A stretch of DNA of 64,000 nucleotides from Bacteroidia bacterium (GTDB taxonomy: Bacteria > Bacteroidota > Bacteroidia > SpSt-205): positions 1-64,000 of the forward strand of contig BPGW01000002.1 of assembly GCA_026003235.1 (NCBI GenBank). The letters are read 5' to 3'. Under the pieces are notes generated by a model. That model searched no databases. It was not told the DNA's origin and worked only from the letters and a program-made list of their open reading frames with translations. A program made the translations under genes and the position numbers. The first letter of the stretch is position 1. Every line of letters starts with the position of its first letter. Below, in pieces: positions 1 through 64,000 of this stretch.

Positions 1-2
1 GG

Positions 3-122
3 CAAAAAGCTGGCTACATGGACTGCTTACAAGGCTCATGGGGGGAGTTTCTGGCAAAGCCCCCGCAGGCTCCGAAGAGGAGCAAGCGCCCAGCCATAGA
101 CCTACAAGAAGGAGCCCTTTAG
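3..122 (+). CDS. Possible 3' end of an upstream gene (partial, uncertain)
   Basis: Frame 3 is open from the window edge to a TAG at 120-122 and gives about 39 residues with a basic, proline-rich stretch (PPQAPKRSKRP). The other two forward frames also run on for a while (to 99 and about 167), so frame openness is weak evidence. No family is recognisable. It could equally be non-coding DNA ahead of glmS. Confidence 0.2.
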   Translation, partial: QKAGYMDCLQGSWGEFLAKPPQAPKRSKRPAIDLQEGAL

Positions 123-166
123 CGCGCATGAGCAAATGTACTTATTTTCCGACGACGGGGAAGCCT

Positions 167-174
167 TAATATTG
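167..174 (+). promoter_or_regulatory. Variant -7 box (TAATATTG) of glmS
   Basis: The box differs at one position from the Bacteroidota consensus TAnnTTTG and ends 5 bases before the glmS ATG. The same variant occurs at 35255-35262 in front of the kinase gene. Confidence 0.45.
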
Positions 175-179
175 CGGTT

Positions 180-2030
180 ATGTGTGGGATTGTGGCCTAT
201 ACTGGGTCTCGCCCGGCTTTGCCAATCCTTCTGGAAGGGCTCAAAAGGCTTGAGTACCGAGGGTACGATTCGGCGGGGGTGGCCCTTCACGAAGAGGGCC
301 AATTCCAGATCTACAAGCAGGCAGGTAAGGTTTCAGCGCTGGCCCGCAGTGTAGCCGGGGTTCCTTTATCGGCTACTACAGGCATTGCGCACACGCGGTG
401 GGCTACGCATGGGGCTCCTACGGACCCGAACGCGCATCCCCATCTCAGCTATGACGGGGAAGTGGTGCTGGTGCACAACGGAATCATTGAGAACTATGCC
501 GCGCTGCGGGCTCGCTTAGCTGCCGAAGGCATTCCTTTTGCCAGCGAGACTGACACCGAAGTGCTGGTACATTGGATTGCGTGGCATCGCCGTCGGCGAC
601 CCCATGCTTCGTGGGAGGAGGTGCTGCGGGAGGCTTTTGCCTCTGTGGAAGGCACCTTTGGGATCGCCATGCTGGTGCGCTCTGAACCAGGGTTGGTTAT
701 TCTGATTCGGCGCTTTAGCCCTCTCCTGATCGGCCTGGGAGAAGGGGAGTTCATCGCCGCCTCCGACGCCACAGCCATCGTGGCGTATACCCGCCGCGTT
801 GTGTATCTTGAGGAAGACGAAGTAGCGCTTTTACACCCTTCCCAGGAAGCGCCGCAGATTTTCAGCTTGGCGGATCGGCGGCGAGAAGCGCGGGTGGAGT
901 ACATTGATTGGGACGTCTCGGCCATAGAGCGAGGGGGCTTTCCCCACTACATGCTCAAGGAGATTTTTGAGCAGCCGAACGCCCTCCGAGATTGCATGCG
1001 GGGCCGCATCCGCCAGGAGCCCTTGGAAGTGCGGCTGGGAGGTATCAGCAGCGTCATGGATAGGCTTTTAGCTGCACCTCGGCTGACCCTGGTCGGATGC
1101 GGCACAAGCTGGCACGCTGCCCTGGTAGGGGAGTACCTCCTGGAACAGCTGGCTCGCATCCCCACCGAAGTGGAATACGCTTCCGAGTTTCGGTATCGCG
1201 ATCCTGTCATTGGACCTCAGGATGTGGTCATTGGCATTAGCCAGAGCGGCGAGACGGCCGATACGCTGGCGGCGCTGCGCCTGGCCAAAGAAAAAGGTGC
1301 GCTCGCGCTCGGTATCACCAATGTAGTAGGGTCCAGCATTCCTCGCGAGACGCATGCGGGCATCTACATTCATGCGGGGCCGGAGATCGGGGTCGCCTCC
1401 ACGAAGGCCTTCACCGCTCAGCTCACAGCGCTGACTATGTTGGCGCTTCACCTTGGAGCTGCCCGCTATACGCTGGATCGTACCCTCCACGATACGCTCC
1501 TGGAGGCGCTTCTCCGGCTGCCTGACCAAGTGGAGGCCACCCTCCACGCCCTCAACGAGCCTGTCAGGGCGTTGGCCGAGCGCTTCCATACCGTTTCCAA
1601 TGCCTTGTACTTAGGACGGGGCTACAATTTCCCCGTGGCCCTGGAAGGCGCTCTCAAGCTCAAAGAGATCTCCTACATCCACGCCGAAGGATATCCCGCC
1701 GCCGAGATGAAGCACGGCCCTATTGCCCTCGTGGATGAGGGTATGTTGGTTGTGGTGATTGCGCTGCGGGATAGCCTCTACGAAAAGGTGCTCGGTAATG
1801 TCCAAGAGGTTCGGGCGCGCGGAGGGCGGATCGTAGCCATCGCCACCGAAGGCGACACCGAGATCCAAGCCTACGCCGAAGCGGTTCTCTATGTGCCCGA
1901 GGTGCCCGAACCCCTTTCGCCTATCTTGACAGTGCTTCCGCTTCAGCTTCTGGCTTATCATGCGGCTGTTTTGCGAGGCTGCGATGTAGATCAGCCCCGC
2001 AATCTGGCTAAGTCGGTCACCGTAGAGTAG
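180..2030 (+). CDS. glmS: Glutamine--fructose-6-phosphate aminotransferase
   Basis: This cytosolic enzyme converts fructose-6-phosphate and glutamine to glucosamine-6-phosphate, the entry step to peptidoglycan and LPS amino sugars. The 616-aa product has the family's usual length. It starts MCGIVAY, placing the catalytic N-terminal Cys right after the initiator Met, so the ATG at 180 must be the start. Residues 1-220 are the class II glutaminase domain. Two SIS sugar-isomerase domains follow (about 290-425 and 455-600). The C-terminus carries the diagnostic DxPRNLAKSVTVE motif. No glmS ribozyme is visible: the -7-like box ends 5 bases before the ATG, leaving no room for one. The ComEC-like gene follows after 9 bases, probably on the same transcript. 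Confidence 0.97.
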   Translation: MCGIVAYTGSRPALPILLEGLKRLEYRGYDSAGVALHEEGQFQIYKQAGKVSALARSVAGVPLSATTGIAHTRWATHGAPTDPNAHPHLSYDGEVVLVHNGIIENYAALRARLAAEGIPFASETDTEVLVHWIAWHRRRRPHASWEEVLREAFASVEGTFGIAMLVRSEPGLVILIRRFSPLLIGLGEGEFIAASDATAIVAYTRRVVYLEEDEVALLHPSQEAPQIFSLADRRREARVEYIDWDVSAIERGGFPHYMLKEIFEQPNALRDCMRGRIRQEPLEVRLGGISSVMDRLLAAPRLTLVGCGTSWHAALVGEYLLEQLARIPTEVEYASEFRYRDPVIGPQDVVIGISQSGETADTLAALRLAKEKGALALGITNVVGSSIPRETHAGIYIHAGPEIGVASTKAFTAQLTALTMLALHLGAARYTLDRTLHDTLLEALLRLPDQVEATLHALNEPVRALAERFHTVSNALYLGRGYNFPVALEGALKLKEISYIHAEGYPAAEMKHGPIALVDEGMLVVVIALRDSLYEKVLGNVQEVRARGGRIVAIATEGDTEIQAYAEAVLYVPEVPEPLSPILTVLPLQLLAYHAAVLRGCDVDQPRNLAKSVTVE

Positions 2031-2039
2031 GCCCCTCTT

Positions 2040-3542
2040 ATGCCCGCCTGGCAGCATCCCTTTTTGTGGGCTGCGGCGGGGCTGGCCCTGGGCCTCTATC
2101 TGCACGAGCTACCTCTGGCTTGGGCCTTGGCTGGTCAGGCCGTCCTTACGATGGGTGCCGCGTACCTGTGGTGGGTTCAACAGGCGCCGAGACTGGTATG
2201 GGTTCTGCCTGTGTTTAGCGCACTGGGCGTTTTTCGCGCCGAAGTGAGTCAGCTCAGCCGGCAAGACCCCCTTCTGCCCCTGCGTGGCCATCTGGTTCAG
2301 CTTCAGGGCTACCTCATCGAGGAGCCTCTGCCGACCCGCAAAGCCTGCCGTCTCCTGGTGAGGGTGGATTCGGTGTATGGGCCGCTTTTTGCGCGAGGAT
2401 GGCGGTTGACCGGCGAATGTATTATTTATGTGCGCGGTGGCTGCGAGGGTTCGCTAAAGCCCGGTACGCGAGTTCAGGCTACCCTGCGCCTGGATACGCT
2501 CCAGTATGGCGCCGCCTATTGGGCCAGGCAGGGGGTCCACCTGGGGGGCTTTGCTCCTCATATTCAGATAGGCGAGGTAGAGCCGACCTATGGGTGGGGG
2601 TATTTTCTGCGGCTGCGACAGGTTCTTTTGGAGGGTTTGCGGCGTACGGCCCCCCGCCAAGACCCTGTAGAAGCCGTGCTGGAAGCGCTCCTGCTGGGCT
2701 ATCGGCGGGGCGTGGACCCTGAAACGCGCGCAGCGTTTCAACTTTCTGGCGCCGCCCACATCCTGGCCGTGTCGGGCATGCATGTAGGACTGGTGCTTAC
2801 CCTATGGCTTTTTCTGCTTCGCCATCTGCCAGGGGGATGGGCTTTTCATCCTGTCAGCCAGGGAGCGCTCCTTATCTTAGTGCTGCTTTATGGGCTCCTT
2901 ACGGGAGCTTCGCCCTCCGCGATGCGAGCCGTGATCATGGGTGCAGTGGCGCTGCTGGCTCGTATGGCGTACAAGCCCTACCTTGCGCTCAATGCCCTGG
3001 GTTTTGCGGCCTTTATCCAACTCAGCCTGGATCCTGCTCTCCTGCATAATGTAGGCTTCCAGCTCTCCTATGCGGCTGTGGGGGGCATTCTGGCTTTTTA
3101 CGGGCCTCTTCGGGGACTTTTCAGAGGTCGGTTTTTTTCCACCGCTTGGGGGGCTTACCTGCGCGATCTGGTAGCGATTTCGCTGGCGGCGCAGGCGGGT
3201 ACCCTGCTGCTTAGCTGGGCTTATTTCGGGCGCCTGCCGCTGTATTTCCTCCTCACCAACCTCGTGGCGGTGCCGCTGGGTACGGCAGCTACTTTTGCGG
3301 CGGTGGGGTGGCTGATGCTGATGCCTTTTCCGGGTCTTGGTTCTCTGGCCGCTTGGCCCGCTTATGGGCTGGCCTGGTTGATGGTCCAGGCCGTCAAGGG
3401 GCTGTCTCGCCTCCCAGGCAGCTCCCTGGAACTCCCCCCTCTGCCCCTGCCTTGGGCTGTGGGGCTGACCCTGCTTCTCGTTGCAGGCGGAGGGTGGGCG
3501 CTTCACCGCCTACGCCGCGAAGAAACCCTCTGGATTGCCTGA
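2040..3542 (+). CDS. ComEC/Rec2-family DNA-uptake channel protein, short form
   Basis: A 500-aa polytopic membrane protein. Residues 1-60 hold hydrophobic helices, about 60-170 resemble the DUF4131 soluble domain, and about 215-480 form the Competence membrane domain, with the signature HILAVSGMHVGL near residue 240. In transforming bacteria ComEC carries single-stranded DNA across the inner membrane. The protein stops right after the last membrane helices with a short basic tail, so the C-terminal metallo-beta-lactamase domain of full-length ComEC (usually 700-800 aa) is missing; nothing in the next gene supplies it. It lies 9 bases after glmS and probably shares its transcript. Family assignment is firm; activity in transformation is inferred. 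Confidence 0.88.
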   Translation: MPAWQHPFLWAAAGLALGLYLHELPLAWALAGQAVLTMGAAYLWWVQQAPRLVWVLPVFSALGVFRAEVSQLSRQDPLLPLRGHLVQLQGYLIEEPLPTRKACRLLVRVDSVYGPLFARGWRLTGECIIYVRGGCEGSLKPGTRVQATLRLDTLQYGAAYWARQGVHLGGFAPHIQIGEVEPTYGWGYFLRLRQVLLEGLRRTAPRQDPVEAVLEALLLGYRRGVDPETRAAFQLSGAAHILAVSGMHVGLVLTLWLFLLRHLPGGWAFHPVSQGALLILVLLYGLLTGASPSAMRAVIMGAVALLARMAYKPYLALNALGFAAFIQLSLDPALLHNVGFQLSYAAVGGILAFYGPLRGLFRGRFFSTAWGAYLRDLVAISLAAQAGTLLLSWAYFGRLPLYFLLTNLVAVPLGTAATFAAVGWLMLMPFPGLGSLAAWPAYGLAWLMVQAVKGLSRLPGSSLELPPLPLPWAVGLTLLLVAGGGWALHRLRREETLWIA

Positions 3543-3549
3543 GTTTTCG

Positions 3550-3557
3550 TACCTTTG
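3550..3557 (+). promoter_or_regulatory. -7 promoter box TACCTTTG
   Basis: Exact match to TAnnTTTG, ending 7 bases before the ATG at 3565. It starts 8 bases after the ComEC-like stop codon. Confidence 0.7.
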
Positions 3558-3564
3558 CTTCGGT

Positions 3565-4734
3565 ATGCGCAGGTACCTCGCAGTCCTTGGCTTGACAGGT
3601 CTGGCTTTCGTGTGGGCGCAAAAGAAACAGGTAAACGCTCAGGAATCCAAAACCAGCCCCGATAAGCCGGCAAAGCTGGTAGAGTTCCCTAAAGTAGAGC
3701 ATGATTTTGGCAAAATCAAGGAGGAAGACCGCACAGCCACCACGCGCTTTACTTTCAAGAATGTAAGCAAGGAGCCTGTTCGGGTGGTGGATGTGAAGGC
3801 GTCGTGCGGGTGCACCTCCCCCAGCTGGAGCAAAGAGCCGGTTGCGCCAGGCAAGGAAGGCTTTGTGGAGGCGCAGTACAGCGCCTGGGGTCGTCCGGGA
3901 AGCTTTACCAAAACCCTCACCGTGCGCGTGCGCTCCGAAAAGGACACCACCCGAGAAGAGACCTACGTGCTAACTATCAAAGGCGAAGTGCTCCCTCGGC
4001 CGAAAGGCCCCGAAGACTGGTACCCGACGAAGGTAGGAGCTCTCCGGTTCGGCCCGGCTAACCACGTCTCCTTCGGCACCATCAAAACCAACGAACGCAA
4101 AACCCTCTACGTCACGCTGTACAACGACTCGGACAAGCCTCTGGAGCTGCGCGAGTTTGTGGAAGTGCCTAAACATGTGAAGGTCTTCTTCAAGACGCCT
4201 AAGGGTACGGTGCCCAACTATGTGCTTCCTCCGAAGGATACGGTACAGGTAGGCGTAGAGTACGATGCGGGGGCGGCGGGGGATTACGGGTTTGTGTATC
4301 ACCTCCTCAAGCTGCGCACGAACGACGCCGTAGAACCCGACAAGCCCTTCTACATCACGGCTAACATTGAGGAGTACTTTGGCGAACTGACGGAACAGGC
4401 GCTGGCTGAGGCGCCTCGGGTGCAGTTTGACGCCACCGAGTACAACTACGGCAAAATCAAAGCCGGTGAAAAGGTCACGCATGAGTTTCGCCTTACCAAT
4501 ACGGGCAAAAAGCCCCTTGTGATCCGGAAGGTCAAGGCCAGCTGTGGGTGTACCGCAGCCATGCCTGAAAAAAGTGAGCTCAAGCCGGGTGAGAGCACGA
4601 CGATAAAGGTGGTGTTTGATTCCACCGGGCGGGCAGGCCGCGACTCTAAGAGCGTCACCGTGATTACGAATGACCCTCGCCAGCCTACCACCAACCTGGT
4701 CATCCAGGGTGAAATTGAGGCTGTAAGCAAGTAA
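3565..4734 (+). CDS. Secreted protein with two DUF1573 domains
   Basis: The 389-aa product starts at the ATG at 3565, just after a -7 box. An in-frame TTG at 3481 exists but lies inside the previous gene. A signal peptide (MRRYLAVLGLTGLAFVWAQ) probably ends Ala|Gln. Two DUF1573 domains, Ig-like (ASH/MSP-like) folds common in Bacteroidota, lie at about 38-125 and 285-385; each contains HDFGKI/YNYGKI-like and VKASCGCT motifs. The middle third is a diverged third copy or linker. The paired SCGC cysteines repeat in both domains. Function in this family is not established; periplasmic or surface location is inferred. A strong terminator follows, so the gene ends its own unit. Confidence 0.85.
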   Translation: MRRYLAVLGLTGLAFVWAQKKQVNAQESKTSPDKPAKLVEFPKVEHDFGKIKEEDRTATTRFTFKNVSKEPVRVVDVKASCGCTSPSWSKEPVAPGKEGFVEAQYSAWGRPGSFTKTLTVRVRSEKDTTREETYVLTIKGEVLPRPKGPEDWYPTKVGALRFGPANHVSFGTIKTNERKTLYVTLYNDSDKPLELREFVEVPKHVKVFFKTPKGTVPNYVLPPKDTVQVGVEYDAGAAGDYGFVYHLLKLRTNDAVEPDKPFYITANIEEYFGELTEQALAEAPRVQFDATEYNYGKIKAGEKVTHEFRLTNTGKKPLVIRKVKASCGCTAAMPEKSELKPGESTTIKVVFDSTGRAGRDSKSVTVITNDPRQPTTNLVIQGEIEAVSK

Positions 4735-4917: not shown

Positions 4918-4925
4918 TATATTTG
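4918..4925 (+). promoter_or_regulatory. -7 promoter box TATATTTG
   Basis: Exact TAnnTTTG match ending 4 bases before the ATG at 4930. It decides the start of the large surface protein: the longer open frame back to 4750 would begin before the terminator of the previous gene. Confidence 0.75.
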
Positions 4926-14400: not shown

Positions 14401-14408
14401 CAAATGTA
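14401..14408 (-). promoter_or_regulatory. -7 promoter box TACATTTG (minus strand)
   Basis: Exact TAnnTTTG match ending 4 bases before the lipoprotein ATG at 14396. Confidence 0.75.
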
Positions 14409-14457: not shown

Positions 14458-14465
14458 TACCTTAG
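14458..14465 (+). promoter_or_regulatory. Variant -7 box TACCTTAG of purE
   Basis: One mismatch to TAnnTTTG. It ends 4 bases before the purE ATG, the same spacing as the exact boxes. The identical variant sits before the DUF4197 gene at 17855. Confidence 0.5.
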
Positions 14466-14979: not shown

Positions 14980-15566
14980 GGGGGTGGGGTGCCGTAGCTT
15001 TGCTGAGCATGACCTTAGCCCAGCCTATAGAGGAAGCCACTTTTGGTGGGGGTTGCTTTTGGTGCACGGAAGCCCTCTTCAAGCAGCTGCGTGGGGTGGT
15101 GGAGGTGCTACCTGGGTATGCCGGCGGGCACACCGCTAACCCCACTTACGAGGAGGTGTGCACGGGCACGACCGGCCATGCCGAAGTGGTGCGCGTGCGC
15201 TTCCGTCCCCAGGAAATCTCGTACGAGCAGCTGGTGGAGTACTTTTTCCTTACGCACGACCCCACCACGCCCAATCGGCAAGGGGCCGATGTAGGTCCCC
15301 AGTATCGGTCGGTAATCTTTTACCACTCACCGCAGCAAAAGACCGTAGCTGAACGCGTCAAGCACCGCCTGGAAGCAGAAAAGGTGTTCCCCGCTCCCAT
15401 CGTCACTACGATAGAACCGCTTACCTCCTTCTACCCGGCGGAGCCCTACCATCACGACTATTTTGCTCGGCATCCCCAGCAGCCCTACTGTCGGTTCGTG
15501 ATTGCGCCCAAAGTCCAGAAAGCCCGGGAAAAGTTCCGCTCTCTGCTCAAAGAGGCTGGAAAGTAG
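14976..15566 (+). CDS. msrA: Peptide-methionine (S)-S-oxide reductase, exported
   Basis: MsrA repairs oxidised methionine. The active-site motif GGCFWC places the catalytic Cys at residue 27; a second Cys is at 30. The family signatures [16 protein letters not shown] and GHAEVV(R)V follow. The 196-aa length fits a single-domain MsrA plus an N-terminal signal sequence ([16 protein letters not shown]) probably cut Ala|Gln, so it should act outside the cytoplasm. No MsrB domain is fused. Its ATG overlaps the purE stop (ATGA), implying translational coupling. Its TAG stop directly abuts the -7 box of the next gene. Confidence 0.93.
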
Positions 15567-15574
15567 TACCTTTG
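15567..15574 (+). promoter_or_regulatory. -7 promoter box TACCTTTG
   Basis: Exact match that begins at the base after the msrA stop codon and ends 4 bases before the ATG at 15579. Confidence 0.75.
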
Positions 15575-17632: not shown

Positions 17633-17862
17633 AGCTCACGCTGGAGGAGATCGCCGCTCACCTGGCTCCCATTCGGCAGTACCTGGCGGCCGATGGAGGG
17701 GATATTGAACTGGTGGATCTCACGCCTGATGGGGTGCTCTACATCCGGCTTCTGGGGAGCTGCCGGACCTGCGACCTGAATTCTACCACCGTGCAGCTGG
17801 GGATCCTGGAGCCCCTTCAGCGGCTTTTCCCCACCCTCAAAGCCATAAAAGTCGTACCTTAG
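17629..17862 (+). CDS. NifU-like iron-sulfur scaffold domain protein
   Basis: A free-standing 77-aa NifU C-terminal domain. The family core AADGGDIELVDL and the cluster-ligating pair GSCRTC (Cys45 and Cys48) are intact. Such small Nfu proteins bind a 4Fe-4S cluster across a dimer and hand it to target proteins. The ATG overlaps the stop of the Mrp gene (ATGA). The last three bases, TAG, form the end of the variant -7 box TACCTTAG of the next gene, so stop codon and promoter share bases. Confidence 0.93.
   Translation: MKLTLEEIAAHLAPIRQYLAADGGDIELVDLTPDGVLYIRLLGSCRTCDLNSTTVQLGILEPLQRLFPTLKAIKVVP
17855..17862 (+). promoter_or_regulatory. Variant -7 box TACCTTAG overlapping a stop codon
   Basis: One mismatch to TAnnTTTG; ends 4 bases before the ATG at 17867. 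Its last three bases are the TAG stop of the NifU-like gene. A perfect TTTG would abolish that stop, which may explain the mismatch. Confidence 0.5.
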
Positions 17863-21110: not shown

Positions 21111-21118
21111 TACTTTTG
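21111..21118 (+). promoter_or_regulatory. -7 promoter box TACTTTTG
   Basis: Exact TAnnTTTG match ending 6 bases before the GTG at 21125. It supports GTG over the ATG at 21152 as the start of the methyltransferase. Confidence 0.65.
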
Positions 21119-21124: not shown

Positions 21125-22189
21125 GTGCGTGAAGAAGGCTTTTCTCTTCGGATGGAAGCGGTGCCCTATTGTATGCTTTGTGGGAGCGAGGGATCGCTTC
21201 TGTATGAGGGGCTTGAGGATAGGTTGTACGGGGTGCCAGGGAAATTTAGTCTGTATTCTTGTCCTGATTGTGGCCTGGTGTGGCTAAATCCTCGCCCGGT
21301 AGAAGAGGACTTGGCCAAGTGTTACATGAACGCCTATTACACGCACACTCCTCCCGCGTCTTTAGAGCGGAGTGCCGTTCTGCGGGGGTGGCGGGAGTTT
21401 TTGCGGCGGCTGATTTGGGAGGCGTATTATGCGTATCCACCTGCAGGGCGGTTTCCTCTTTTGCGCAAGGCTGTAGGGAAGGTTTTAGGGGCTTTACCGC
21501 CTCTTCGGCGGCGGGCTGCTTACGACTTAGGGGTCCTTTTTCTGCCTTTTCACGGGCAGCGGAGGCTTTTAGATGTGGGCTGCGGCAATGGCGCCTACCT
21601 CAAGCTGATGCAAGAACTGGGATGGCAGGTGACCGGCATAGATATAGACCCAGCCGCGGTCGCAGTGTGCCGAGCTCAGGGTCTGAACGCTTCTGTGGGG
21701 ACGCTGGAAACGATGAACTTCCCCGATCACGCCTTTGATGCCATAACCCTCAGCCATGTTTTTGAGCATCTCCCTGATCCGGCTAAGTTTCTCCAGGAGT
21801 GTTATCGTATTCTCTCGCCGGGGGGGTATATAGCCATGAAGATGCCTAACATAAAGAGTTTAGGGCATCGGCTATTTAAGCGGTTTTGGAGAGGGCTTGA
21901 ACCTCCTCGCCATCTGAGCCTTTGGGATAGACATACATTGCATATTATTCTACATCGCAATAACCTTAAAATATATACATGCCATACAAGTAGTCATATA
22001 GCGGATTTTATTTATGAATATAGTGTTTTTTCAAATGAAAAATACAAAAAAAGCTTTATATTCTATCTAAGAAAAAAAATATTCAAAATTCATGAGAATT
22101 TTCTTCTCTTGTTTGACAAAGATGCAGGTGAGGAAGTGTTTATGGTAGCTCGGAAGTCAGGAATGAATTTATTTGCAAAACAAGGATAA
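21125..22189 (+). CDS. SAM-dependent methyltransferase with N-terminal zinc ribbon
   Basis: The 354-aa product has an N-terminal CxxC pair (YCMLCGSE and SCPDCGLVW, about residues 16-55), a treble-clef or zinc-ribbon arrangement typical of sugar and cell-surface methyltransferases. A class I SAM domain follows (LLDVGCGNGAYL, then GIDIDP, and the post-motif EHLPDPAKFL). Base composition changes abruptly inside the gene: the first 800 bases are GC-rich like the neighbours, while the last 260 (from about 21930) are strongly AT-rich with Lys/Phe/Tyr/Ile-rich protein. Start GTG at 21125 is chosen from the -7 box; ATG at 21152 is an alternative. With the following glycosyltransferase it suggests a polysaccharide-modifying pair. 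Confidence 0.82.
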   Translation: MREEGFSLRMEAVPYCMLCGSEGSLLYEGLEDRLYGVPGKFSLYSCPDCGLVWLNPRPVEEDLAKCYMNAYYTHTPPASLERSAVLRGWREFLRRLIWEAYYAYPPAGRFPLLRKAVGKVLGALPPLRRRAAYDLGVLFLPFHGQRRLLDVGCGNGAYLKLMQELGWQVTGIDIDPAAVAVCRAQGLNASVGTLETMNFPDHAFDAITLSHVFEHLPDPAKFLQECYRILSPGGYIAMKMPNIKSLGHRLFKRFWRGLEPPRHLSLWDRHTLHIILHRNNLKIYTCHTSSHIADFIYEYSVFSNEKYKKSFIFYLRKKIFKIHENFLLLFDKDAGEEVFMVARKSGMNLFAKQG

Positions 22190-23189: not shown

Positions 23190-24002
23190 TTATTCATAGC
23201 TTTCAGCAGCGGAGGGGAAGTCCCGTCGTTTGACATCCTGGATGTAGCGTTCCGCTGCTTCGCGGACGATCTTAGCTAAGTGGACATAGCGTCGCAGAAA
23301 GCGCGGGGAGAAAGCCTCGGTCAGCCCCAGCATATCATGCAGCACAAGCACTTGTCCATCGCAGTGAGGCCCTGCCCCAATCCCGATGGTGGGAATAGGG
23401 AGGCTTTCCGTCACTTCTTGGGCCAGGCTGGCGGGCACTTTTTCCAGCACGAGGGCGAAGATTCCGGCTTCAGCCAGGAGAGCGGCGTCTCTGCGTAGTT
23501 TTTCGGCTTCGGTGGGGTCTTTGGCGCGCACGCGGTAGCCGCCAAACTGATAGATAGACTGGGGGGTCAGGCCCAGGTGCCCCATCACCGGAATGCCCGC
23601 AGATACGATGCGCTGCACCGAATCCAACACCGCCTCGCCGCCTTCCAATTTTACTGCATGGGCGCCGCTTTCCTTCATGATGCGAATCGCGGCGCGCAGC
23701 GCCTGGCGCGAGTCGCCCTGGTAGCTGCCAAAGGGCATATCTACCACCACCAAGGCTCGTTGGGCGGCGCGCACGACAGCGCTGCCGTGGTAGATCATCT
23801 GGTCTAGCGTGATAGGTAGGGTGGTTTCGTGGCCAGCGATCACATTGGAAGCGGAGTCGCCTACCAGAAGCACTTCAATGCCTGCTTCGTCCAGGAGCCG
23901 CGCAAACGTGTAATCGTACGCCGTGAGCATGGCGATGGGTTCCCGGCGTGCTTTCATTTCGGCCAGGGTGCGGGTGGTGATCCGCTTAACTTTGCCTTCC
24001 AC
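23190..24002 (-). CDS. panB: 3-methyl-2-oxobutanoate hydroxymethyltransferase
   Basis: PanB makes ketopantoate from alpha-ketoisovalerate and methylene-THF, the first committed step to pantothenate and CoA. The 270-aa product contains [56 protein letters not shown] and the catalytic-Glu region ALVLEKVPA. The start is a GTG at 24002, four bases after an exact -7 box; the next codons match the family N-terminus. Divergent to ubiE with only 11 bases between start codons. Its 3' end faces the glycosyltransferase with 9 bases between and no visible terminator. Confidence 0.96.
23987..23994 (+). promoter_or_regulatory. -7 promoter box TAACTTTG of ubiE
   Basis: Exact TAnnTTTG match lying inside the first codons of panB and ending 19 bases before the ubiE ATG. 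It interleaves with the panB box on the other strand. Confidence 0.5.
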
Positions 24003-24006: not shown

Positions 24007-24014
24007 CAAAGGTA
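24007..24014 (-). promoter_or_regulatory. -7 promoter box TACCTTTG of panB (minus strand)
   Basis: Exact match ending 4 bases before the panB GTG. Its outermost base is the first base of the ubiE ATG on the other strand. Confidence 0.75.
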
Positions 24015-25370: not shown

Positions 25371-25406
25371 GGTGGTTTTGGGGAGAGGGTTGTATTTTCG
25401 CAGGCC

Positions 25407-31933: not shown

Positions 31934-33540
31934 GCCTCAAAGGTAGGAGAAGAGACCCGAGGCAATAGCCAGAAAAACACGGTCAGCCCTGCAGCCCCGC
32001 TCAGGAAAAGCCAGGGGAAAGATTCCTCCCTTAGCCAGACGAGGAGGCCCAGGAGCAGCGCATAGCCGCTAACGGTGCCCAGGAGCCACAGGCCCATGTG
32101 GCGTAGCGTGAAGGCAGGCTGGACTTTCTGGGCGAAGGCCTCCCAGCTCCTCTTGTCGGGGGCAGGCCCCAGAAGGGTCACCAAGACCACGCACCCAAGG
32201 GTAAAAGCCACCGTGGCGAGGTAGCTGTAGGGGAAAACCCATTCCAGCCCCCACCTAAAGAGGGCGTATCCTACCATCGGCGCTATTAGGCCGGCGATTT
32301 CGGACCAGATGGTGAGCCTCGGCCAAAACCATCGCAGGATCAGGACCAGGCCGGTACCTGCCCCGCTCTCCAAAAGGAAGTTCCAAGCGCCGGCGATGCT
32401 GTCCATGAAGGGGGTCACAACCAAGCTTAGGACCGCCAGGACGATCGTGGCCCACAAGCCGGCTTGCAGGGCTTTGTTTTCGGCCAGGCCTAAGTCGCGG
32501 GCAGCGTACGAAGCCCCCCAGTTGAAGTGGGTGGAGACCGTGCTCATGTAGGCGCCCGTCAGCCCCACCAGCAGGAAGATCTGCTCCAAAGGCGAGAGGA
32601 ACCGTTGGGCCATGAGGAGGTAGGCGCTCTTGGGGTCAGCCAGGTCCGGCAGCACCACGAGGGAAGCCAGCGCTACAGAGAACCAGGTGGCTGGCCGGAT
32701 GGCGTAATGCAGCACCTGAAAGAGAGCCAGGGCCTTTTGCGCCTGGGTGGGAGAAGGGGTGGAGGCCATGCGCTGGAGAATGTAGCCTCCACCGGCGGGT
32801 TCAGCGCCGGGGTACCAGCTGGCCCACCATTGCACCCCCAAAAAGGCCACCGCCACCCAGAAGCTCCAGGCTTCCTTGCCGCTTCCCGGAGCCAAGGCCC
32901 AAGCCCAGTCTGGTACAGAAGACAAGTCCACCGCTTGGAATACGCGCAGCATGAGCAGCGTGGTCGATCCCAGCGCCAGAACAAGCTGGAGCACATCGGT
33001 CCATACCACGCTCCACAGCCCTCCCAGCAGGGTATAGGTGAGGGTCACGGCGGTAGCTATGCCCAGAAGCAGGTAAGCCTGCAGGGGGGTAAGCCCCACC
33101 AGCGTCTGAAGGACGGTCCGCATGGCGGTCTGGACCCAGCCGAGGATGATGAGGTTGAGGAAGAGGCCCAGCCAGACAGCCCTTACAGCTCGCAGGAGCG
33201 CGGCGGGGCGGTTGCCGTAGCGCAGGGAAAGGATCTCGCTGTCGGTGAGCACCCCACTGCGCCGCCACAGGGGCGCAAAGACCACCACACTAAGCATGCC
33301 CCCAATGAGCATATTCCACCAGCGCCAGTTGCCTGCCAGGCCTTCTTGTCGCACGTATTCGGTGATGGCGAGGGGTGTATCCACTGCGAAGGTCGTGGCC
33401 ACCATGCTAAGGGCCGCGAGATACCAGGGAAGCTGGCGGCTGGCGGCAAAGTACCCTTCCAGCGTGGGGGTGGTGCGGCGCCGGCCCCAAAACCCTACCG
33501 CCAGACTCAAGACAAAATACCCTCCCAAGGCCCACAACAT
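31930..33540 (-). CDS. Sodium:solute symporter family protein
   Basis: The 536-aa inner-membrane protein has about 13-14 hydrophobic helices and the SSS-family features: an early GRRRTTPTLEGYFAASRQLPW loop, helix 1-2 ATTFAVDTPL, and GLTGAYMSTVSTHFNWGASY with the conserved sodium-site region. The substrate cannot be predicted; relatives carry sugars, amino acids or vitamins. ATG at 33540 is chosen because an exact -7 box ends 3 bases upstream; a TTG at 33546 is in frame. It heads a unit with the hydrolase and zinc-ribbon genes. Confidence 0.88.
   Translation of the reverse strand: MLWALGGYFVLSLAVGFWGRRRTTPTLEGYFAASRQLPWYLAALSMVATTFAVDTPLAITEYVRQEGLAGNWRWWNMLIGGMLSVVVFAPLWRRSGVLTDSEILSLRYGNRPAALLRAVRAVWLGLFLNLIILGWVQTAMRTVLQTLVGLTPLQAYLLLGIATAVTLTYTLLGGLWSVVWTDVLQLVLALGSTTLLMLRVFQAVDLSSVPDWAWALAPGSGKEAWSFWVAVAFLGVQWWASWYPGAEPAGGGYILQRMASTPSPTQAQKALALFQVLHYAIRPATWFSVALASLVVLPDLADPKSAYLLMAQRFLSPLEQIFLLVGLTGAYMSTVSTHFNWGASYAARDLGLAENKALQAGLWATIVLAVLSLVVTPFMDSIAGAWNFLLESGAGTGLVLILRWFWPRLTIWSEIAGLIAPMVGYALFRWGLEWVFPYSYLATVAFTLGCVVLVTLLGPAPDKRSWEAFAQKVQPAFTLRHMGLWLLGTVSGYALLLGLLVWLREESFPWLFLSGAAGLTVFFWLLPRVSSPTFEA
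31938..31945 (-). promoter_or_regulatory. -7 promoter box TACCTTTG inside the symporter's last codons (minus strand)
   Basis: Exact match ending 4 bases before the hydrolase ATG, encoded within the final codons of the upstream symporter gene. Confidence 0.65.
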
Positions 33541-33543: not shown

Positions 33544-33551
33544 CAAAGGTA
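33544..33551 (-). promoter_or_regulatory. -7 promoter box TACCTTTG (minus strand)
   Basis: Exact match ending 3 bases before the symporter ATG at 33540; located in the 14-base gap after recN. Confidence 0.7.
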
Positions 33552-35237: not shown

Positions 35238-35254
35238 GTTTGCCGCAAAGTTTG

Positions 35255-35262
35255 TAATATTG
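35255..35262 (+). promoter_or_regulatory. Variant -7 box TAATATTG of the sensor kinase gene
   Basis: One mismatch to TAnnTTTG, ending 6 bases before the ATG at 35269. Same variant as in front of glmS. Confidence 0.4.
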
Positions 35263-43734: not shown

Positions 43735-43742
43735 TACCTTTG
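43735..43742 (+). promoter_or_regulatory. -7 promoter box TACCTTTG before a 35-aa ORF
   Basis: Exact match ending 4 bases before the ATG at 43747. A TTG 18 bases upstream (43714-43716) could serve as the -33 element. Confidence 0.7.
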
Positions 43743-43974: not shown

Positions 43975-43982
43975 TCAGTTTG
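43975..43982 (+). promoter_or_regulatory. Variant -7 box TCAGTTTG of trpB2
   Basis: One mismatch to TAnnTTTG; ends 3 bases before the ATG at 43986. Confidence 0.4.
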
Positions 43983-48116: not shown

Positions 48117-48148
48117 AAAGCGAAAGTAACGCTTGCATCTTTGCCAGG

Positions 48149-49021
48149 ATGGAGACCCTTTCCTACCGGCTCTTGGACTGGGTGCTCACACGATTCGGGC
48201 GCCTCTCGTGGGCCCGGCGGGACCAGATCGCCCATGCCCTCTACCACCTCGTGTATCGGGTTTGGGGGTATCGGCGAGAACTGGTGCGGCGCCACCTCCG
48301 ACAAGCTTTTCCCGACAAACCCGAAACCTGGCTCACCACCACCGAAAAAGCCTTTTACCAACTCTTTGCGGACTGGATGATGGAGCTGTGCTTTATGCAC
48401 GCCCACGATTGGGAGGCCGTGCGAGCCCAGTTTGAGATCAAGAACCTGGAGCTTTTTCACCAGGCCCATCAGCGCGGTCAATCGGTGATTGTGGCTATGG
48501 GCCACCAGTTCAATTGGGAGTGGGGCGGTTGGATTGTGCGCAAAGACACGCAAGCCCCCATCTTGTGTGTCTACTTGCCGCTTAGCTGGGGGGTGGGGGA
48601 CAAGTTTTTCTTGCGTTTGCGGGGGCGGTATGGAAGTGAGATGCTCCCGCTGGGCAAGATGGGAGCACGGCTGGCGCGTATGCGCTCCACCACGCATACG
48701 CTCATTCTGATGGCCGACCAGAGCCCCAGCGACTTGGAAAGGGCCTACTGGGTGCCCTTTCTGCATCGGGTCACCGCTTGGCATGGGGGCTTGGAACGCA
48801 GCGCTCGGCTGGGAGGGTATCGCGTGCTCTTTGTGGAGATCGTGCAGACAGAAAGGCACCGCTACGAAGCGTACCCCACGGTCCTCACGGATGAGCCAGC
48901 TCGTTTGCCTGAAGGGCAGCTCACCCGCCTGTATGTAGAGGCCTTGGAGGCCAGCATTCGCCGGGCGCCGCACAACTGGCTCTGGACCCACAACCGCTGG
49001 AAGCACAGCCCCCCCTCTTAG
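48149..49021 (+). CDS. Lysophospholipid/lipid A acyltransferase (LpxL/HtrB-like)
   Basis: The 290-aa membrane-associated product matches the LpxL/LpxM (HtrB) family: catalytic H-x4-E motif in VAMGHQFNWEWG, then DQSPS and VPFLHR-like segments and an N-terminal membrane-associated region. In Bacteroidota such enzymes acylate lipid A or, in some cases, ornithine or glycine lipids. The ATG at 48149 follows a near-box (CATCTTTG, 48136-48143) by 5 bases. The next gene topA starts 18 bases after the stop. Confidence 0.9.
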   Translation: METLSYRLLDWVLTRFGRLSWARRDQIAHALYHLVYRVWGYRRELVRRHLRQAFPDKPETWLTTTEKAFYQLFADWMMELCFMHAHDWEAVRAQFEIKNLELFHQAHQRGQSVIVAMGHQFNWEWGGWIVRKDTQAPILCVYLPLSWGVGDKFFLRLRGRYGSEMLPLGKMGARLARMRSTTHTLILMADQSPSDLERAYWVPFLHRVTAWHGGLERSARLGGYRVLFVEIVQTERHRYEAYPTVLTDEPARLPEGQLTRLYVEALEASIRRAPHNWLWTHNRWKHSPPS

Positions 49022-49024: not shown

Positions 49025-49032
49025 TATATTTG
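49025..49032 (+). promoter_or_regulatory. -7 promoter box TATATTTG of topA
   Basis: Exact match ending 6 bases before the ATG at 49039. It contains the alternative TTG start at 49030, which is therefore unlikely to be used. Confidence 0.7.
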
Positions 49033-54748: not shown

Positions 54749-54772
54749 GGGGGAAAGATACAAAAAAGCGTG

Positions 54773-54845: not shown

Positions 54846-54848
54846 CCG

Positions 54849-54922
54849 TGGCGAGAGCGGGAATCGAACCCGCGACCTCAGGGTTATGAATCCTGCGCTC
54901 TTACCAACTGAGCTATCTCGCC
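54849..54922 (-). tRNA. tRNA-Met (anticodon CAT, elongator type)
   Basis: Minus strand, acceptor GGCGAGA/TCTCGCC, D arm GCTCAGTTGGTAAGAGC, loop TTCATAA giving anticodon CAT, T arm GCGGG TTCGATT CCCGC. The CCA is not encoded. The first acceptor pair is normal, so it is not the initiator, which has a mismatched first pair. The anticodon stem CAGGA/CCCTG has an A-C mismatch at its inner end. A CAT anticodon can be converted to Ile by lysidine; the Met call rests on general features. Confidence 0.88.
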
Positions 54923-54929: not shown

Positions 54930-54937
54930 CAAAGGTA
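54930..54937 (-). promoter_or_regulatory. -7 promoter box TACCTTTG of the tRNA genes (minus strand)
   Basis: Exact match in the 21-base gap after ispD, ending 7 bases before the mature 5' end of tRNA-Met. Because a tRNA precursor must include the 5' end, transcription starts within about 7 bases of the box. Confidence 0.7.
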
Positions 54938-55639: not shown

Positions 55640-56688
55640 CAGATCACGAGCAGAAGGTCCCCATAGCAACCCCACTGGTAGCCTTTTTCCAGGGCCGTCT
55701 CGTAGGCTTTGCGCACAGGCGTATACCCCCCAAAGGTGGCGGTGGCGATAAAGCCAGCCGACTTAGGCAGGTGAAACTGCGTCAGGAGGGCCGTAGGAAT
55801 CTGGCACCGATAAGGAGGGAAGAGGAACTTCACCGTCCAGTCGGCGCCGGCCTTGAGATGGCCATAGGCAGAAAGGCTGGACTCCACAGCGCGCAAGGTG
55901 CTGACCCCTACCACCAAGACCCGCTTCCCTTGCCGGCGGGCTTCATTGACGCGTTCGGCGGCCTCTGCGCTCACCTCAAAGTACTCCGCATCCATGGAAA
56001 ACTTGAAAAGGTCCTCCACCTCAATGGTCCGAAAGTTAGCGGTGCCCACGTGCAGGGTCACGGGCACAAGGTCTACCCCTTTGACCTGGAGCTGGCGAAT
56101 CAAGAGCCGGGTGAAAGGCAAGCTTGCATCCGGGGCTTGGACCGAGCCCATGATGCCTTCCCATACGGGGAGGAAGTCTCGGAAGTCTTGCTCCCGGTAA
56201 GGACGGGTGATATACCGGGGTAGGGCCATCCGCCCAATGCTATCTATCAGGGCCGAAAACGATTCCCCCGGCGGCACAATGAACCGAATCGCCCGTTCCC
56301 GGCTTGTGGTGTTATCCACCACCTCGGCCGTGAGAGCGCTGTTGTAGAAGTAAATCTTGTTGCCTACCCGAATTTTTCGGGCGGGTTCCACCATCGCGTT
56401 CCACAGGTGGGTTTCGGGGTCCAGCTCGCGCAGGAGGAGGACCTCCACGGGGGATGTGCTTCGCTCTTTGTGACCCACCAGCAGGCAAGGGAAGGGCAGC
56501 GAGTTGTTGTAGACGAGGACGTCCCCTTCGTCAAGGTACTCCACCAGGTCGGCAAAAGACCGGTGTTCTATTTGGCCGGTCTCCCGGTGAAGCACCATCA
56601 GGCGGTTGCTGCCGCGCGGTTCTGGAGGATACTGGGCGATCTGGGTGGGGCTGAGTTCAAAGGCATAGTCGGATAGCCGGCTGCTCAT
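55639..56688 (-). CDS. queA: S-adenosylmethionine:tRNA ribosyltransferase-isomerase
   Basis: QueA forms epoxyqueuosine in tRNA wobble modification. The 349-aa product contains IAQYPPEPRGSNRLMVL, the DVLVYNNSLPFP segment, PVTLHVGTANFRTIEVED and the late KFLFPPYR and GGYTPVRKAYETALEKGY block. Some family motifs are less standard (VTLHVG-TANFRTI), which may reflect a lineage variant. Its TGA overlaps ispD. The start at 56688 faces the permease gene, whose -7 box begins at the same base. Confidence 0.93.
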   Translation of the reverse strand: MSSRLSDYAFELSPTQIAQYPPEPRGSNRLMVLHRETGQIEHRSFADLVEYLDEGDVLVYNNSLPFPCLLVGHKERSTSPVEVLLLRELDPETHLWNAMVEPARKIRVGNKIYFYNSALTAEVVDNTTSRERAIRFIVPPGESFSALIDSIGRMALPRYITRPYREQDFRDFLPVWEGIMGSVQAPDASLPFTRLLIRQLQVKGVDLVPVTLHVGTANFRTIEVEDLFKFSMDAEYFEVSAEAAERVNEARRQGKRVLVVGVSTLRAVESSLSAYGHLKAGADWTVKFLFPPYRCQIPTALLTQFHLPKSAGFIATATFGGYTPVRKAYETALEKGYQWGCYGDLLLVI

Positions 56689-56695
56689 AATTTTG
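56688..56695 (+). promoter_or_regulatory. -7 promoter box TAATTTTG of the permease gene
   Basis: Exact match ending 16 bases before the permease ATG at 56712. Its first base is the queA start codon's first base on the other strand. Confidence 0.55.
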
Positions 56696-56701: not shown

Positions 56702-56709
56702 CAAAGATA
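56702..56709 (-). promoter_or_regulatory. -7 promoter box TATCTTTG of queA (minus strand)
   Basis: Exact match ending 13 bases before the queA ATG. It interleaves with the permease box on the other strand. Confidence 0.55.
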
Positions 56710-58800: not shown

Positions 58801-58808
58801 TACCTTTG
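58801..58808 (+). promoter_or_regulatory. -7 promoter box TACCTTTG
   Basis: Exact match ending 7 bases before the ATG at 58816, with a TTG 18 bases upstream (58780-58782) as a possible -33 element. Confidence 0.75.
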
Positions 58809-59767: not shown

Positions 59768-59769
59768 CT

Positions 59770-61947: not shown

Positions 61948-62540
61948 AGCCTACCCTGTACCTGTGGGGTGCGTTGGCGGGCGGTGCGCTGGTAGCGGGG
62001 GGATGGTGGCTCTACGAGCGTCACACCGTCCCCCCCGCAGGGCGAGCCGTCTGGCCAGCGGTGGCGACCTATCCCCTCTTTGACCTGGAAGGCCAGCCGG
62101 TCCGGGTAGATTCGCTAAAGGGGAAAGTCGTCCTGCTGGCTTTCGTCTACACCCGCTGCACCTCGGTGTGCCCGCGCTTACAGGCCCGCATGCGGGACCT
62201 CCTCCTGCAAGTGTCCCCTCACACCCCGCTCGTGGCTCTTTCCATTTCGTTGGACCCCGAGCGGGATACCCCCCAGCAGGTCAAACCCTATTTGACCAGC
62301 TACGCCGTGCCAGGTCACAGGTGGCTTTTCTGGCGGCCCCTCTCTCAGAAGTGGGCCTTTGACATGGCCGAAACCGTCTTCGGCATCGCCGCAGCTCGGC
62401 TCGATAGCACCGATATCTTGCATACCGACGCCCTCTTCCTGATTGACTGTGAGGGCCGCTTGCGAGGCACTTACACTTCTTACGACGAAAACCTCCTTCC
62501 ACACACGCAGAAACTTTTACGCCTATGTGGTACCGACTAA
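61944..62540 (+). CDS. Sco1/SenC/PrrC-type copper chaperone
   Basis: The 198-aa membrane-anchored thioredoxin-fold protein inserts copper into the CuA site. It has an N-terminal helix, the copper motif CTSVC (Cys72 and Cys76) and His160 in DILHTDALFLID. Overlap with the oxidase gene (ATGA) and with the cytochrome (16 bases) shows it belongs to the operon. Confidence 0.94.
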   Translation: MKPTLYLWGALAGGALVAGGWWLYERHTVPPAGRAVWPAVATYPLFDLEGQPVRVDSLKGKVVLLAFVYTRCTSVCPRLQARMRDLLLQVSPHTPLVALSISLDPERDTPQQVKPYLTSYAVPGHRWLFWRPLSQKWAFDMAETVFGIAAARLDSTDILHTDALFLIDCEGRLRGTYTSYDENLLPHTQKLLRLCGTD

Positions 62541-63079
62541 CCTGCCTAACTCTCGCCCTTTTAGGGCTGGCTTGGACCCAAAACCCTGATAAGGGGAAGG
62601 TCCTTTTTCAGCAGCGGTGTGCAGCGTGCCATAAGCTTGAGCAAAAGCTTATCGGACCGCCTCTGGCTGGAGTGGAAAGCCGCCGAAAAAAAGAGTGGTT
62701 CCTCCAGTTTGTAGCCAACTCCCAGGCGCTTATCCAGGCTGGGGATAAGGAGGCGGTCGCTGTGTACAACGAGTACAACAAGCAAGTTATGCCGCCTTTT
62801 CCGGACCTAACGCCGGCCGATCTGGAGGACCTTTGGGCTTATGTCAATTCGGTCAAGGTGGCGTCCGCCGCTCCCGAGGCCAAGGCGAGTGCGTCTCCTC
62901 AGGCCGGTGAGGCCCGCTTGGTCTATCCTGGGCAGGCTCGCCCTATGCAAAGCGAAGACTGGGCTTTCCTGCGCCAGACGTTCTGGCTGTTGGTAGGTGC
63001 AGCGGTGGGGGTAGCGCTGCTTTTGGGGCTGGTGATTCACTTTGTGAGCACCCGCGCAGGCGACAGTAAGCGCACATAG
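62525..63079 (+). CDS. Membrane-anchored c-type cytochrome
   Basis: The 184-aa product has a signal peptide (Thr|Gln), a class I cytochrome c domain with heme motif CAACH (Cys32, Cys35, His36) and likely sixth ligand Met89 (KQVMPPFPDL), a flexible Ala/Ser/Glu-rich linker and a C-terminal transmembrane helix (about 148-172). It likely feeds electrons to the CuA site of the ba3 oxidase. The anchor at the C-terminus is unusual among partner cytochromes of ba3 oxidases. Its 3' end overlaps the convergent glycosyltransferase by 43 bases. Confidence 0.93.
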   Translation: MWYRLTCLTLALLGLAWTQNPDKGKVLFQQRCAACHKLEQKLIGPPLAGVESRRKKEWFLQFVANSQALIQAGDKEAVAVYNEYNKQVMPPFPDLTPADLEDLWAYVNSVKVASAAPEAKASASPQAGEARLVYPGQARPMQSEDWAFLRQTFWLLVGAAVGVALLLGLVIHFVSTRAGDSKRT

Positions 63080-64000
63080 ACGCCTTTGTACCGCTCCAGC
63101 CCTACGGGCAGAGACAGAAACGGCGCACTCGCTTCGCGAAGGGAGGGTGCGCCGGGTTTTTTTTCCAGCAGGCGCTGGGCGACCTGAGCGTACTCCGCCT
63201 CGTCAAAATGCTCGCAGAGATAGAGTCCCCCAGGGATTTGAGCCGCCAAGGTAGGGTTGTCCCCTAAGTCGGTCTGCACAACGACAGGAATGTTCATTGC
63301 CAACAGCTCAGCAATCCGCGTGGGCGAGCTTCCTATTCGGCTGAATCCAGGCCGGCAAAAGATAATGGAGCTATCCAGCACGCTGAGGTAGCTGGGCAGT
63401 TCTGACCGAGGCACGAAGCGTAGGCGGAGGGCAGAGCGGGGTAGGCCAACCTCATCCCAGTAGCGGAAAATCGCTTCTGGGGGAGCAGGCGTGTAGAAGA
63501 CCATGTAGGCATCTTCTCTTAGGCCCCGCAGAACCCGAAAAAAGCGCAGCATTTCGCGCACTTCGTACAAAGGGCCGATAGACCCTACATAACCTAATAC
63601 GTAGGCCTCGGGGGGAAGGTCCAGTTCGGTGCGACGGCGCTGCCGCTCAACAGCATAGAGGTCGGCCGGCAGAAAAAAGTGACCATAATCCGCTACGCAG
63701 GGGATCACCGTAATGCGGTCCGGGGAAAGGCCTCTTTCCACGAGATAGGCTTTCGCTGCTTCGGTGAGGACGATAATGTGCGCTGCGGAGGCCAGCATGG
63801 CCTTCTCGCGCCGCTTCCAGAGGCGATACAGAACCTGGTGGAGGGGCGAGGAGGGCGGCCAAGCCTGGGTCTCCCGCCGTTCATCAGCCCAGAAGCCCCG
63901 CATGTCAAAGATCCAAGGCACGCCGTAGCGTTGATGAAGTCGGTGGGCTACCCACCCCGCTACATAGCTGCGGGCATGCAAGAGGTTTATATTCCCTTTT
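63037..64000 (-). CDS. Family 4 glycosyltransferase (partial, 5' end beyond the window)
   Basis: At least 320 residues of a GT-B glycosyltransferase; the reading frame stays open through 64000, and the upstream residues (GNINLLHARSYVAG) look like real family sequence, so the TTG at 63981 is not the start. Visible motifs are LGYVGSIGPLYEV, RFVPRSELPSYLSVLD and the donor-site region SSPTRIAELLAMNIPVV. The nucleotide-sugar and acceptor are unknown. It probably belongs to a surface-polysaccharide locus that continues past the window. Confidence 0.85.
   Translation of the reverse strand, partial: KGNINLLHARSYVAGWVAHRLHQRYGVPWIFDMRGFWADERRETQAWPPSSPLHQVLYRLWKRREKAMLASAAHIIVLTEAAKAYLVERGLSPDRITVIPCVADYGHFFLPADLYAVERQRRRTELDLPPEAYVLGYVGSIGPLYEVREMLRFFRVLRGLREDAYMVFYTPAPPEAIFRYWDEVGLPRSALRLRFVPRSELPSYLSVLDSSIIFCRPGFSRIGSSPTRIAELLAMNIPVVVQTDLGDNPTLAAQIPGGLYLCEHFDEAEYAQVAQRLLEKKPGAPSLREASAPFLSLPVGLERYKGVYVRLLSPARVLTK

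Follow-up and report, generated by a model that had tools for sequence, protein, structure and literature searches.

Bacteroidota rarely use Shine–Dalgarno pairing, and how their ribosomes find start codons is still being worked out. Initiation in Flavobacterium johnsoniae proceeds on leadered messages without a Shine–Dalgarno sequence and with Kozak-like signals, a mode that reads bases within the leader. Published transcript maps give leaders as the rule in this phylum: the leader exceeds 10 nucleotides (nt) in 87% of cases in F. johnsoniae (PMC6847099), 5.5% are reported as leaderless in Flavobacterium psychrophilum, and the 5' untranslated region is reported to be shorter than 10 nt in about 3.7% in Bacteroides thetaiotaomicron. 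The sigma-ABfr promoters of Flavobacterium and Bacteroides combine a -7 box, TAnnTTTG, with a weak -33 element and AT-rich upstream blocks; for F. johnsoniae the blocks are described at -18 and -28, and the -33 TTTG as weak (PMC6847099). Leaderless messages are familiar from Deinococcus-Thermus and Actinobacteria (mycobacteria, for example), where one core promoter element stands directly before many start codons. For genomes with such signals, Zheng et al. (2011) report average leaderless shares of 39.4% and 19.2%, respectively (PMC3160421). The subject here is the same placement built from the Bacteroidota box, in a 64,000-nt stretch of DNA (the window) from a Bacteroidia bacterium (GTDB lineage Bacteroidota; Bacteroidia; SpSt-205; assembly GCA_026003235.1, contig BPGW01000002.1, positions 1 to 64,000). 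In Deinococcus-Thermus and Actinobacteria the element is Pribnow-like, whereas here it is TAnnTTTG, ending 4 bases before the supposed first transcribed base (+1). The sigma-ABfr promoters share this box, the weak -33 element and the upstream blocks, but serve leadered messages as a rule, whereas here the box most often lies 4 bases before ATG. The original prediction for the window called leaderlessness by default atypical for the phylum, and the published maps bear this out.

In the family to which the window belongs, recognisable promoters appear to lie mostly so near the gene that the message should begin at the start codon or within about 4 bases of it. A box is an exact TAnnTTTG unless stated otherwise, and the gap is the number of bases between the end of the box and the start codon. 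The window has a G+C content of 59.7%, and its source genome, G000, comprises 2.06 Mb in 11 contigs and is 82% complete. The G000 sample consists of the window and 20 further stretches, 464 kb in all or 22% of the genome. A second sample of 421 kb, including locus L003, was taken from KatS3mg025 (G448). The nearest named relatives are metagenome-assembled genomes including SKYG57, SKW77, KatS3mg025, SKYB116 and SKW103, several of them from hot springs. Every box followed by an ATG was tallied per gap, over all ATGs and independently of gene calls. In the 464 kb of G000 the tally reaches 45 at gap 4, against an average of 3.2 per gap at gaps 13–50, and the total for gaps 3–8 is 101 against 18 per six-gap block. 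The KatS3mg025 stretches give 40 at gap 4, and 97 against 23.75 for gaps 3–8. A peak at 4 had been predicted and is found at exactly that gap. Genes with leaderless messages prefer AUG as start codon, and such a preference is found: against the 45 ATGs (about 3 expected), GTG and TTG together rise only slightly at gap 4 in the G000 sample (12 versus about 7), and stop codons show no peak there (8). Across the whole of G000, 190 boxes stand at gap 4 from an ATG and 16 at the control gap of 14.

The position of +1 can be approached from several sides. Many F. johnsoniae promoters are reported to have 4 or 5 nt between box and start site (PMC6847099), so that gap 4 places +1 on the A of ATG. A tRNA-Asn gene of the family (L032) has its mature end 4 bases after the box, which sets +1 no later than box+5 if the gene is complete. 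The four bases between box and ATG at gap 4 contain hardly any A: 7 of the 164 positions in G000, where the genome-wide frequency of A is 20.6% (binomial 2e-9), and 8 of 140 in G448, where it is 22.7% (binomial 5e-8). After G000 boxes without a nearby ATG, the next positions are A at 12–27%. Because of this A-poor spacer, transcription at gap 4 probably begins with the A of ATG. At gaps 6–8 a purine occupies box+5 in 42 of 58 sites, pooled over G000 and G448. We put at roughly 0.8 the probability that these boxes are normal -7 elements of the Bacteroidota housekeeping sigma factor, shifted onto the start codon in this family, with RNA polymerase starting about 5 bases past the box. Gap 4 would then mean no leader, the A of ATG being the first base of the message, and gaps 5–8 a leader of about 0–4 bases. 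Ribosomes would start directly on 5'-terminal AUGs. Operon-internal genes, mostly without a box, would be translated by another route independent of Shine–Dalgarno pairing, perhaps by coupling. Alternatively, the box may be the promoter but with a start site in this lineage other than box+5, or the main, leadered message may come from a second promoter farther upstream. The box-to-start distance has indeed been measured in other Bacteroidota only, and some genes carry a second, one-mismatch box upstream. This alternative is nonetheless unlikely. Both tRNA-Asn and the A-poor spacer speak for +1 at box+5, and it is in genes 16–40 bases behind a same-strand gene, where there is little non-coding room for an extra promoter, that the box occurs most often (27/36).

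Which genes carry the box bears on whether it serves transcription or translation. Genes were called from coding potential only, by a two-codon caller that permits equivalent starts, leaving each start uncertain by a few codons. Its looser choice of starts lifts hits and controls alike, so controls, with the box position shifted by 10–40 bases, are given in brackets alongside each count. Genes cut by the ends of a stretch or with too little upstream sequence are left out. Counting boxes with at most one mismatch at gap 3–8, divergent genes score 54/86 in G000 (18, 13, 7, 16) and 70/100 in G448 (21, 23, 14, 11). Genes 16–40 bases behind a same-strand neighbour score 27/36 (6, 5, 2, 2) and 22/28 (7, 9, 3, 7), those 41–100 bases behind 16/35 in G000 (2, 7, 8, 3), and those 1–15 bases behind 16/52 (4, 5, 1, 5) and 13/51 (3, 3, 3, 4). 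More than 100 bases behind, the signal in G448 is moderate, at 12/26 (6, 4, 5, 4). Overlapping genes score 15/99 in G000 (4, 6, 3, 3) and 4/80 in G448 (6, 7, 6, 4). Leading tRNA and tmRNA genes carry an exact box 4–15 bases before the mature 5' end in 14 of 14 cases, 8 in G000 and 6 orthologous tRNA-Met genes in relatives. Genes directly behind another tRNA gene are left out of this test (tRNA-Leu in L023; tRNA-Pro in the window and six relatives). Alignment of 87 coding promoters on the box places AT-rich blocks roughly 18 and 27 bases upstream of the supposed +1, at about -15 to -20 and at -26 to -28, close to the F. johnsoniae blocks at -18 and -28; no clear -33 motif is seen among them. 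The box is best understood as a promoter and not a ribosome site: it is mostly missing from overlapping operon genes, it occurs at leading tRNA genes, and it has AT-rich blocks upstream. The converse, that box and ATG form a translation signal, namely a U-rich site for the ribosome or S1 at a set distance within messages starting farther upstream, can appeal to the fixed spacing and to a U-rich bias near position -10 that has been discussed as a possible S1 site in the phylum (PMC5397173). It is very improbable: overlapping operon genes need translation signals and not promoters, yet are mostly boxless; non-coding genes bear the same box; and the AT blocks sit at promoter positions.

A few start codons can be fixed independently of gene calling. 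GlmS and AsnB require Cys at position 2, which determines their ATG. In the window, a one-mismatch box precedes AsnB at gap 4 and GlmS at gap 5. A survey of GlmS covered 40 genomes, of which 39 matched and 30 loci are given; L098 yielded no start by pattern. Nine of 11 loci in the genus have a one-mismatch box at gap 4–7, and outside the family a box at gap 3–8 occurs in 2 of 18 readable loci. An exact box at gap 6 precedes the bS21 gene, whose N-terminus is conserved by eye, in both G000 and a KatS3mg025 stretch. That start codons are misassigned, with true starts downstream and true leaders present, is hardly tenable despite the few-codon uncertainty of the caller and the weak starts at 21125 and 43747, because the gap profile was tallied on all ATGs without gene calls and the GlmS, AsnB and bS21 starts agree with it.

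As in F. johnsoniae, no Shine–Dalgarno enrichment is found: 8 of 375 starts in G000 against 6 and 8 in control windows, and 3 of 315 in G448 against 6 and 9. Its absence is general in the phylum. The mode of F. johnsoniae uses the leader, whereas here most genes with a box would lack one. Of the 12 family genomes, 11 have bS21. The bS21 protein of G000 contains AAY, which, on our reading by eye, would be the equivalent of Tyr54. Many Flavobacteriales are reported to have a bS21 gene with an extended Shine–Dalgarno sequence (PMC9976891), whereas here a promoter box lies 6 bases before its ATG. In other families readable bS21 loci were too few to count, and none was available for the two loci of this family. 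IF3 was not found in G000, which is 82% complete, but turned up in 9 of the remaining 11 family genomes; a loss is not claimed.

The placement of the box on the start codon characterises one family and not the phylum at large. Gap 4 was compared with gap 14 in 60 genomes, 12 of the family and 48 others. All 12 family genomes show the signal, with ratios of 5.8–27.6 and 63–97 excess sites per Mb. The 48 genomes outside the family have a median ratio of 1.4, a maximum of 6.4 and a median excess of 8 per Mb. A sister genome of the same order, G406, has 50 boxes at gap 4 against 35 at gap 14. In 63 kb of G406 an exact box at gap 3–8 precedes 4 of 8 divergent genes (controls 1–2), too few to judge. 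G421 gives a weak signal. A draw of 395 genomes of the phylum used the reversed pattern as its only control and was inspected by eye: G000 has 190 against 2, and none other pairs a large count with so small a control (G018 has 7 against 0).

Several observations weigh against this account or narrow it. Outside the family, G414 reaches the ratio of 6.4, on small counts (32 versus 5), and G440, from another family with a G+C content of 34%, has 88 excess gap-4 sites per Mb at a ratio of 3.5. Because the G440 ratio is low, its peak broad (gaps 3–6) and its spacer less A-poor (7, 44, 15 and 22% A, versus 33% in the genome), the same design is not claimed for it. GlmS has its box at gap 10 in G402 and no box with at most one mismatch in G398. 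Overlapping genes in G000 show a small excess (15 versus 3–6). An exact box at gap 3–8 precedes just 33 of 86 divergent genes in G000 (controls 4–8) and 47 of 100 in G448 (3–10). Genes more than 100 bases behind a neighbour in G000 are barely above control (exact 6/64 versus 1–4; at most one mismatch 14/64 against 10, 10, 7 and 4), and the 41–100 class is weak in G448 (18/27 against 12, 9, 8 and 9). The purine preference at box+5 is slight in tRNA promoters (9/14), and the box-to-start distance is borrowed from another member of the class, F. johnsoniae. A sizeable share of genes is without a recognisable box. Such genes, including the class beyond 100 bases, may be miscalled, served by other sigma factors or truly leadered. 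No box with at most one mismatch lies at gap 3–8 of the aligned start in the relatives of 14470 and 17867 (L065) or of 54748 (L003), which weakens the case for those one-mismatch sites or points to drift.

The 'near-universal' geometry of the original prediction therefore fails, with 54 of 86 divergent genes boxed, many boxless and overlapping operon genes mostly without a box. Its placing of the first base at or next to the start codon fares better: the gap-4 peak, the A-poor spacer, the tRNA gap and the AT blocks all agree with it, 5' ends being inferred throughout. Exact boxes within 50 bases of called divergent starts stand at gap 3–8 in 26 of 38 cases in G000 and 34 of 46 in G448. Judged by box position only, a leader above 10 nt would not be the rule among boxed genes. 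Leaderlessness would thus be the commonest design among promoters with a clear box, yet not near-universal.

It is likely that the entire Bacteroidia family is leaderless by default. The housekeeping promoter would lie on the start codon with +1 at the A of ATG, the preceding bases would be purged of A against early starts, the box would share the upstream stop codon in some genes, and ribosomes would routinely load 5'-terminal AUGs, both bS21 and IF3 having been retained in the genus. Searches of open-access papers turned up no Bacteroidota lineage shown to be leaderless by default through promoter position or transcript mapping. Leaderless mRNA itself is already known elsewhere, and what would be new is default leaderlessness through the Bacteroidota box in one family. 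Of 37 Bacteroidetes/Chlorobi genomes, 1 gave leaderless signals (2.4%) in the survey of Zheng et al., which sought only Pribnow-like promoters. The same source grants that this limit may undercount Bacteroidetes, yet considers a high share of unidentified leaderless genes unlikely (PMC3160421). The statement of Nakagawa et al. that the phylum had been reported to be rich in leaderless mRNAs, which names neither lineage nor box, sits badly with the transcript maps of Flavobacterium and Bacteroides. Leaderless mRNA is also reported in some Flavobacteriia lacking CCUCC (PMC10783764). The StartLink work assigns AT-rich non-canonical ribosome binding sites to the Fibrobacteres–Chlorobi–Bacteroidetes (FCB) group, and some of these signals may be start-codon promoters of the present kind. 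PMC9723704, PMC7366714 and PMC9581028 were also drawn on.

A family gone leaderless beside a same-order genome without an excess (50 versus 35) would make the change testable by comparison. Surveys seeking Pribnow-like boxes would miss such promoters. Operon calls based on short gaps would err where genes 16–40 bases apart carry their own promoter (27/36), and gene-start prediction for such genomes could exploit the spacing of the box as a signal.

Within the window, 32 exact boxes occur, against 17.3 (standard deviation 3.65) in shuffles. Without reference to the box, 45 starts were called; an exact box at gap 3–8 precedes 8 of them (0.07 expected), and one with at most one mismatch precedes 18 (0.75 expected). 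The 11 exact and 10 one-mismatch sites listed in the original prediction are all present where claimed, with the gaps measured in Table 1. The two classes differ in strength. Before ATGs opening at least 60 codons in the 464 kb of G000, exact boxes at gap 3–8 number 86 against 8.2 expected, an excess of 78, whereas one-mismatch boxes number 77 against 54 and add about 23. One-mismatch boxes as a class are mostly chance, and a lone one is weak evidence. Particular variants are enriched: 7T>C (12 versus 2.6), 7T>G (7 versus 2.2), 7T>A (4 versus 1.4) and 5T>A (4 versus 1.2). The sites at 180, 14470, 17867, 25407, 35269 and 48116 fall in 7T>C, 7T>A and 5T>A. Variant 1T>C, at 48149, is fair (10 versus 4.2). 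Variants 1T>A (2 versus 4.4; 35237), 2A>C (4 versus 3.4; 43986) and 8G>C (2 versus 4.8; 54748) are not enriched.

Table 1. Boxes near start codons and a tRNA gene in the window; positions are those of the window.
Class	Sequence	Position	Strand	Gap	Start	Gene and remarks
-7 box	TACATTTG	133..140	-	3	ATG 129	divergent from glmS; open reading frame (ORF) cut by window edge; absent from original prediction
-7 box	TACCTTTG	3550..3557	+	7	ATG 3565	DUF1573 protein
-7 box	TATATTTG	4918..4925	+	4	ATG 4930	
-7 box	TACATTTG	14401..14408	-	4	ATG 14396	
-7 box	TAGCTTTG	14995..15002	+	6	ATG 15009	peptide methionine sulfoxide reductase; absent from original prediction
-7 box	TACCTTTG	15567..15574	+	4	ATG 15579	relative in L065 (77% identical) also with exact box, gap 4
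-7 box	TACTTTTG	21111..21118	+	6	GTG 21125	methyltransferase; start codon uncertain
-7 box	TACCTTTG	24007..24014	-	4	GTG 24002	ketopantoate hydroxymethyltransferase PanB
-7 box	TACCTTTG	31938..31945	-	4	ATG 31933	
-7 box	TACCTTTG	33544..33551	-	3	ATG 33540	sodium:solute symporter family
-7 box	TACCTTTG	43735..43742	+	4	ATG 43747	ORF of 35 codons only; gene doubtful
-7 box	TATATTTG	49025..49032	+	6	ATG 49039	DNA topoisomerase
-7 box	TACCTTTG	58801..58808	+	7	ATG 58816	ORF of 72 codons; conserved in L003 with same gap 7
One-mismatch box	TAATATTG	167..174	+	5	ATG 180	GlmS-type; start inferred from Cys2
One-mismatch box	TACCTTAG	14458..14465	+	4	ATG 14470	AIR carboxylase
One-mismatch box	TACCTTAG	17855..17862	+	4	ATG 17867	DUF4197
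One-mismatch box	TATTTTCG	25393..25400	+	6	ATG 25407	leucyl-tRNA synthetase
One-mismatch box	AAACTTTG	35246..35253	-	8	ATG 35237	doubtful, variant class not enriched; L064 has GAACTTTG at gap 9
One-mismatch box	TAATATTG	35255..35262	+	6	ATG 35269	histidine kinase; same box in L064, gap 7
One-mismatch box	TCAGTTTG	43975..43982	+	3	ATG 43986	doubtful, variant class not enriched
One-mismatch box	TACTTTCG	48121..48128	-	4	ATG 48116	asparagine synthase (AsnB); Cys2 start
One-mismatch box	CATCTTTG	48136..48143	+	5	ATG 48149	lipid A acyltransferase
One-mismatch box	TATCTTTC	54753..54760	-	4	ATG 54748	doubtful, variant class not enriched; no box with at most one mismatch in L003
-7 box, tRNA	TACCTTTG	54930..54937	-	7	mature 5' end	tRNA-Met (54848-54922); calibrates box-to-start-site distance
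-7 box, leadered	TAACTTTG	23987..23994	+	19	ATG 24014	UbiE; exception, faces PanB box
-7 box, leadered	TAATTTTG	56688..56695	+	16	ATG 56712	MacB/FtsX-type permease; exception
-7 box, leadered	TATCTTTG	56702..56709	-	13	ATG 56688	QueA; faces permease box

Exceptions with longer gaps exist, as had been noted (UbiE, QueA and the permease in Table 1). Such a short leader seems to be the cost of having two promoters face to face. Where an exact box lies 9–43 bases from a divergent start, an opposing box stands inside the leader in 6 of 11 cases in G000 and 7 of 13 in KatS3mg025, counts in which both members of a pair may be included. In G000 there are 5 exact face-to-face pairs (TAnnTTTG ... CAAAnnTA) within 30 bases, counted as separate places, where 0.89 would be expected, and in KatS3mg025 there are 7 where 1.92 would be expected; their members lie 2–24 bases apart. 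Back-to-back pairs number 2 and 16 against the same expectations, and close divergent promoters of both orientations are therefore over-represented in KatS3mg025. The window holds two face-to-face pairs, QueA/permease (56688/56712), which is kept in L001–L008, and PanB/UbiE (24002/24014). Further such sites lie in L023 (14245–14277) and in L003 (from 9977). The 5' end of each message would lie inside or next to the box of the other, and the two promoters could for this reason exclude each other.

Two earlier sets of starts were set aside. Gene calls from single-codon usage produced numerous GTG starts, found boxes less often (an exact box in 21 of 80 divergent genes versus 0–5) and were replaced. 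Reciprocal best hits between G000 and KatS3mg025 gave 163 pairs, 150 with an aligned start, 144 past the filter and 67 matching a called gene. Many of the pairs resembled antisense shadow frames, and the chosen starts were often internal; the box rate of divergent genes in this set equals the control (either genome, 4/11 versus 4/11). The set is not used as evidence, and only single pairs read by eye were retained.

Some minor observations can be added. Neither G000 nor any of 10 other genomes, one of them a 2.3 Mb single contig, yielded a 16S rRNA gene, which may reflect masking or a limit of the collection. The AT-rich G440 (L045–L052, L131–L140) possibly represents a second, independent move toward short leaders. 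At glmS the variant TAATATTG recurs in 10 of the 11 loci of the genus (L073–L083), with TAATATCG in the remaining one, despite its departure from TAnnTTTG. The TAATATTG variant, found twice in the window (167–174 and 35255–35262), may be recognised by a different sigma factor or indicate weaker promoters. Finally, among same-strand genes with an exact box at gap 3–8, the start of the box coincides exactly with the upstream stop codon in 7 of 46 cases in G000 and 7 of 41 in KatS3mg025, so that one triplet is both the stop codon and the opening three bases of the box.

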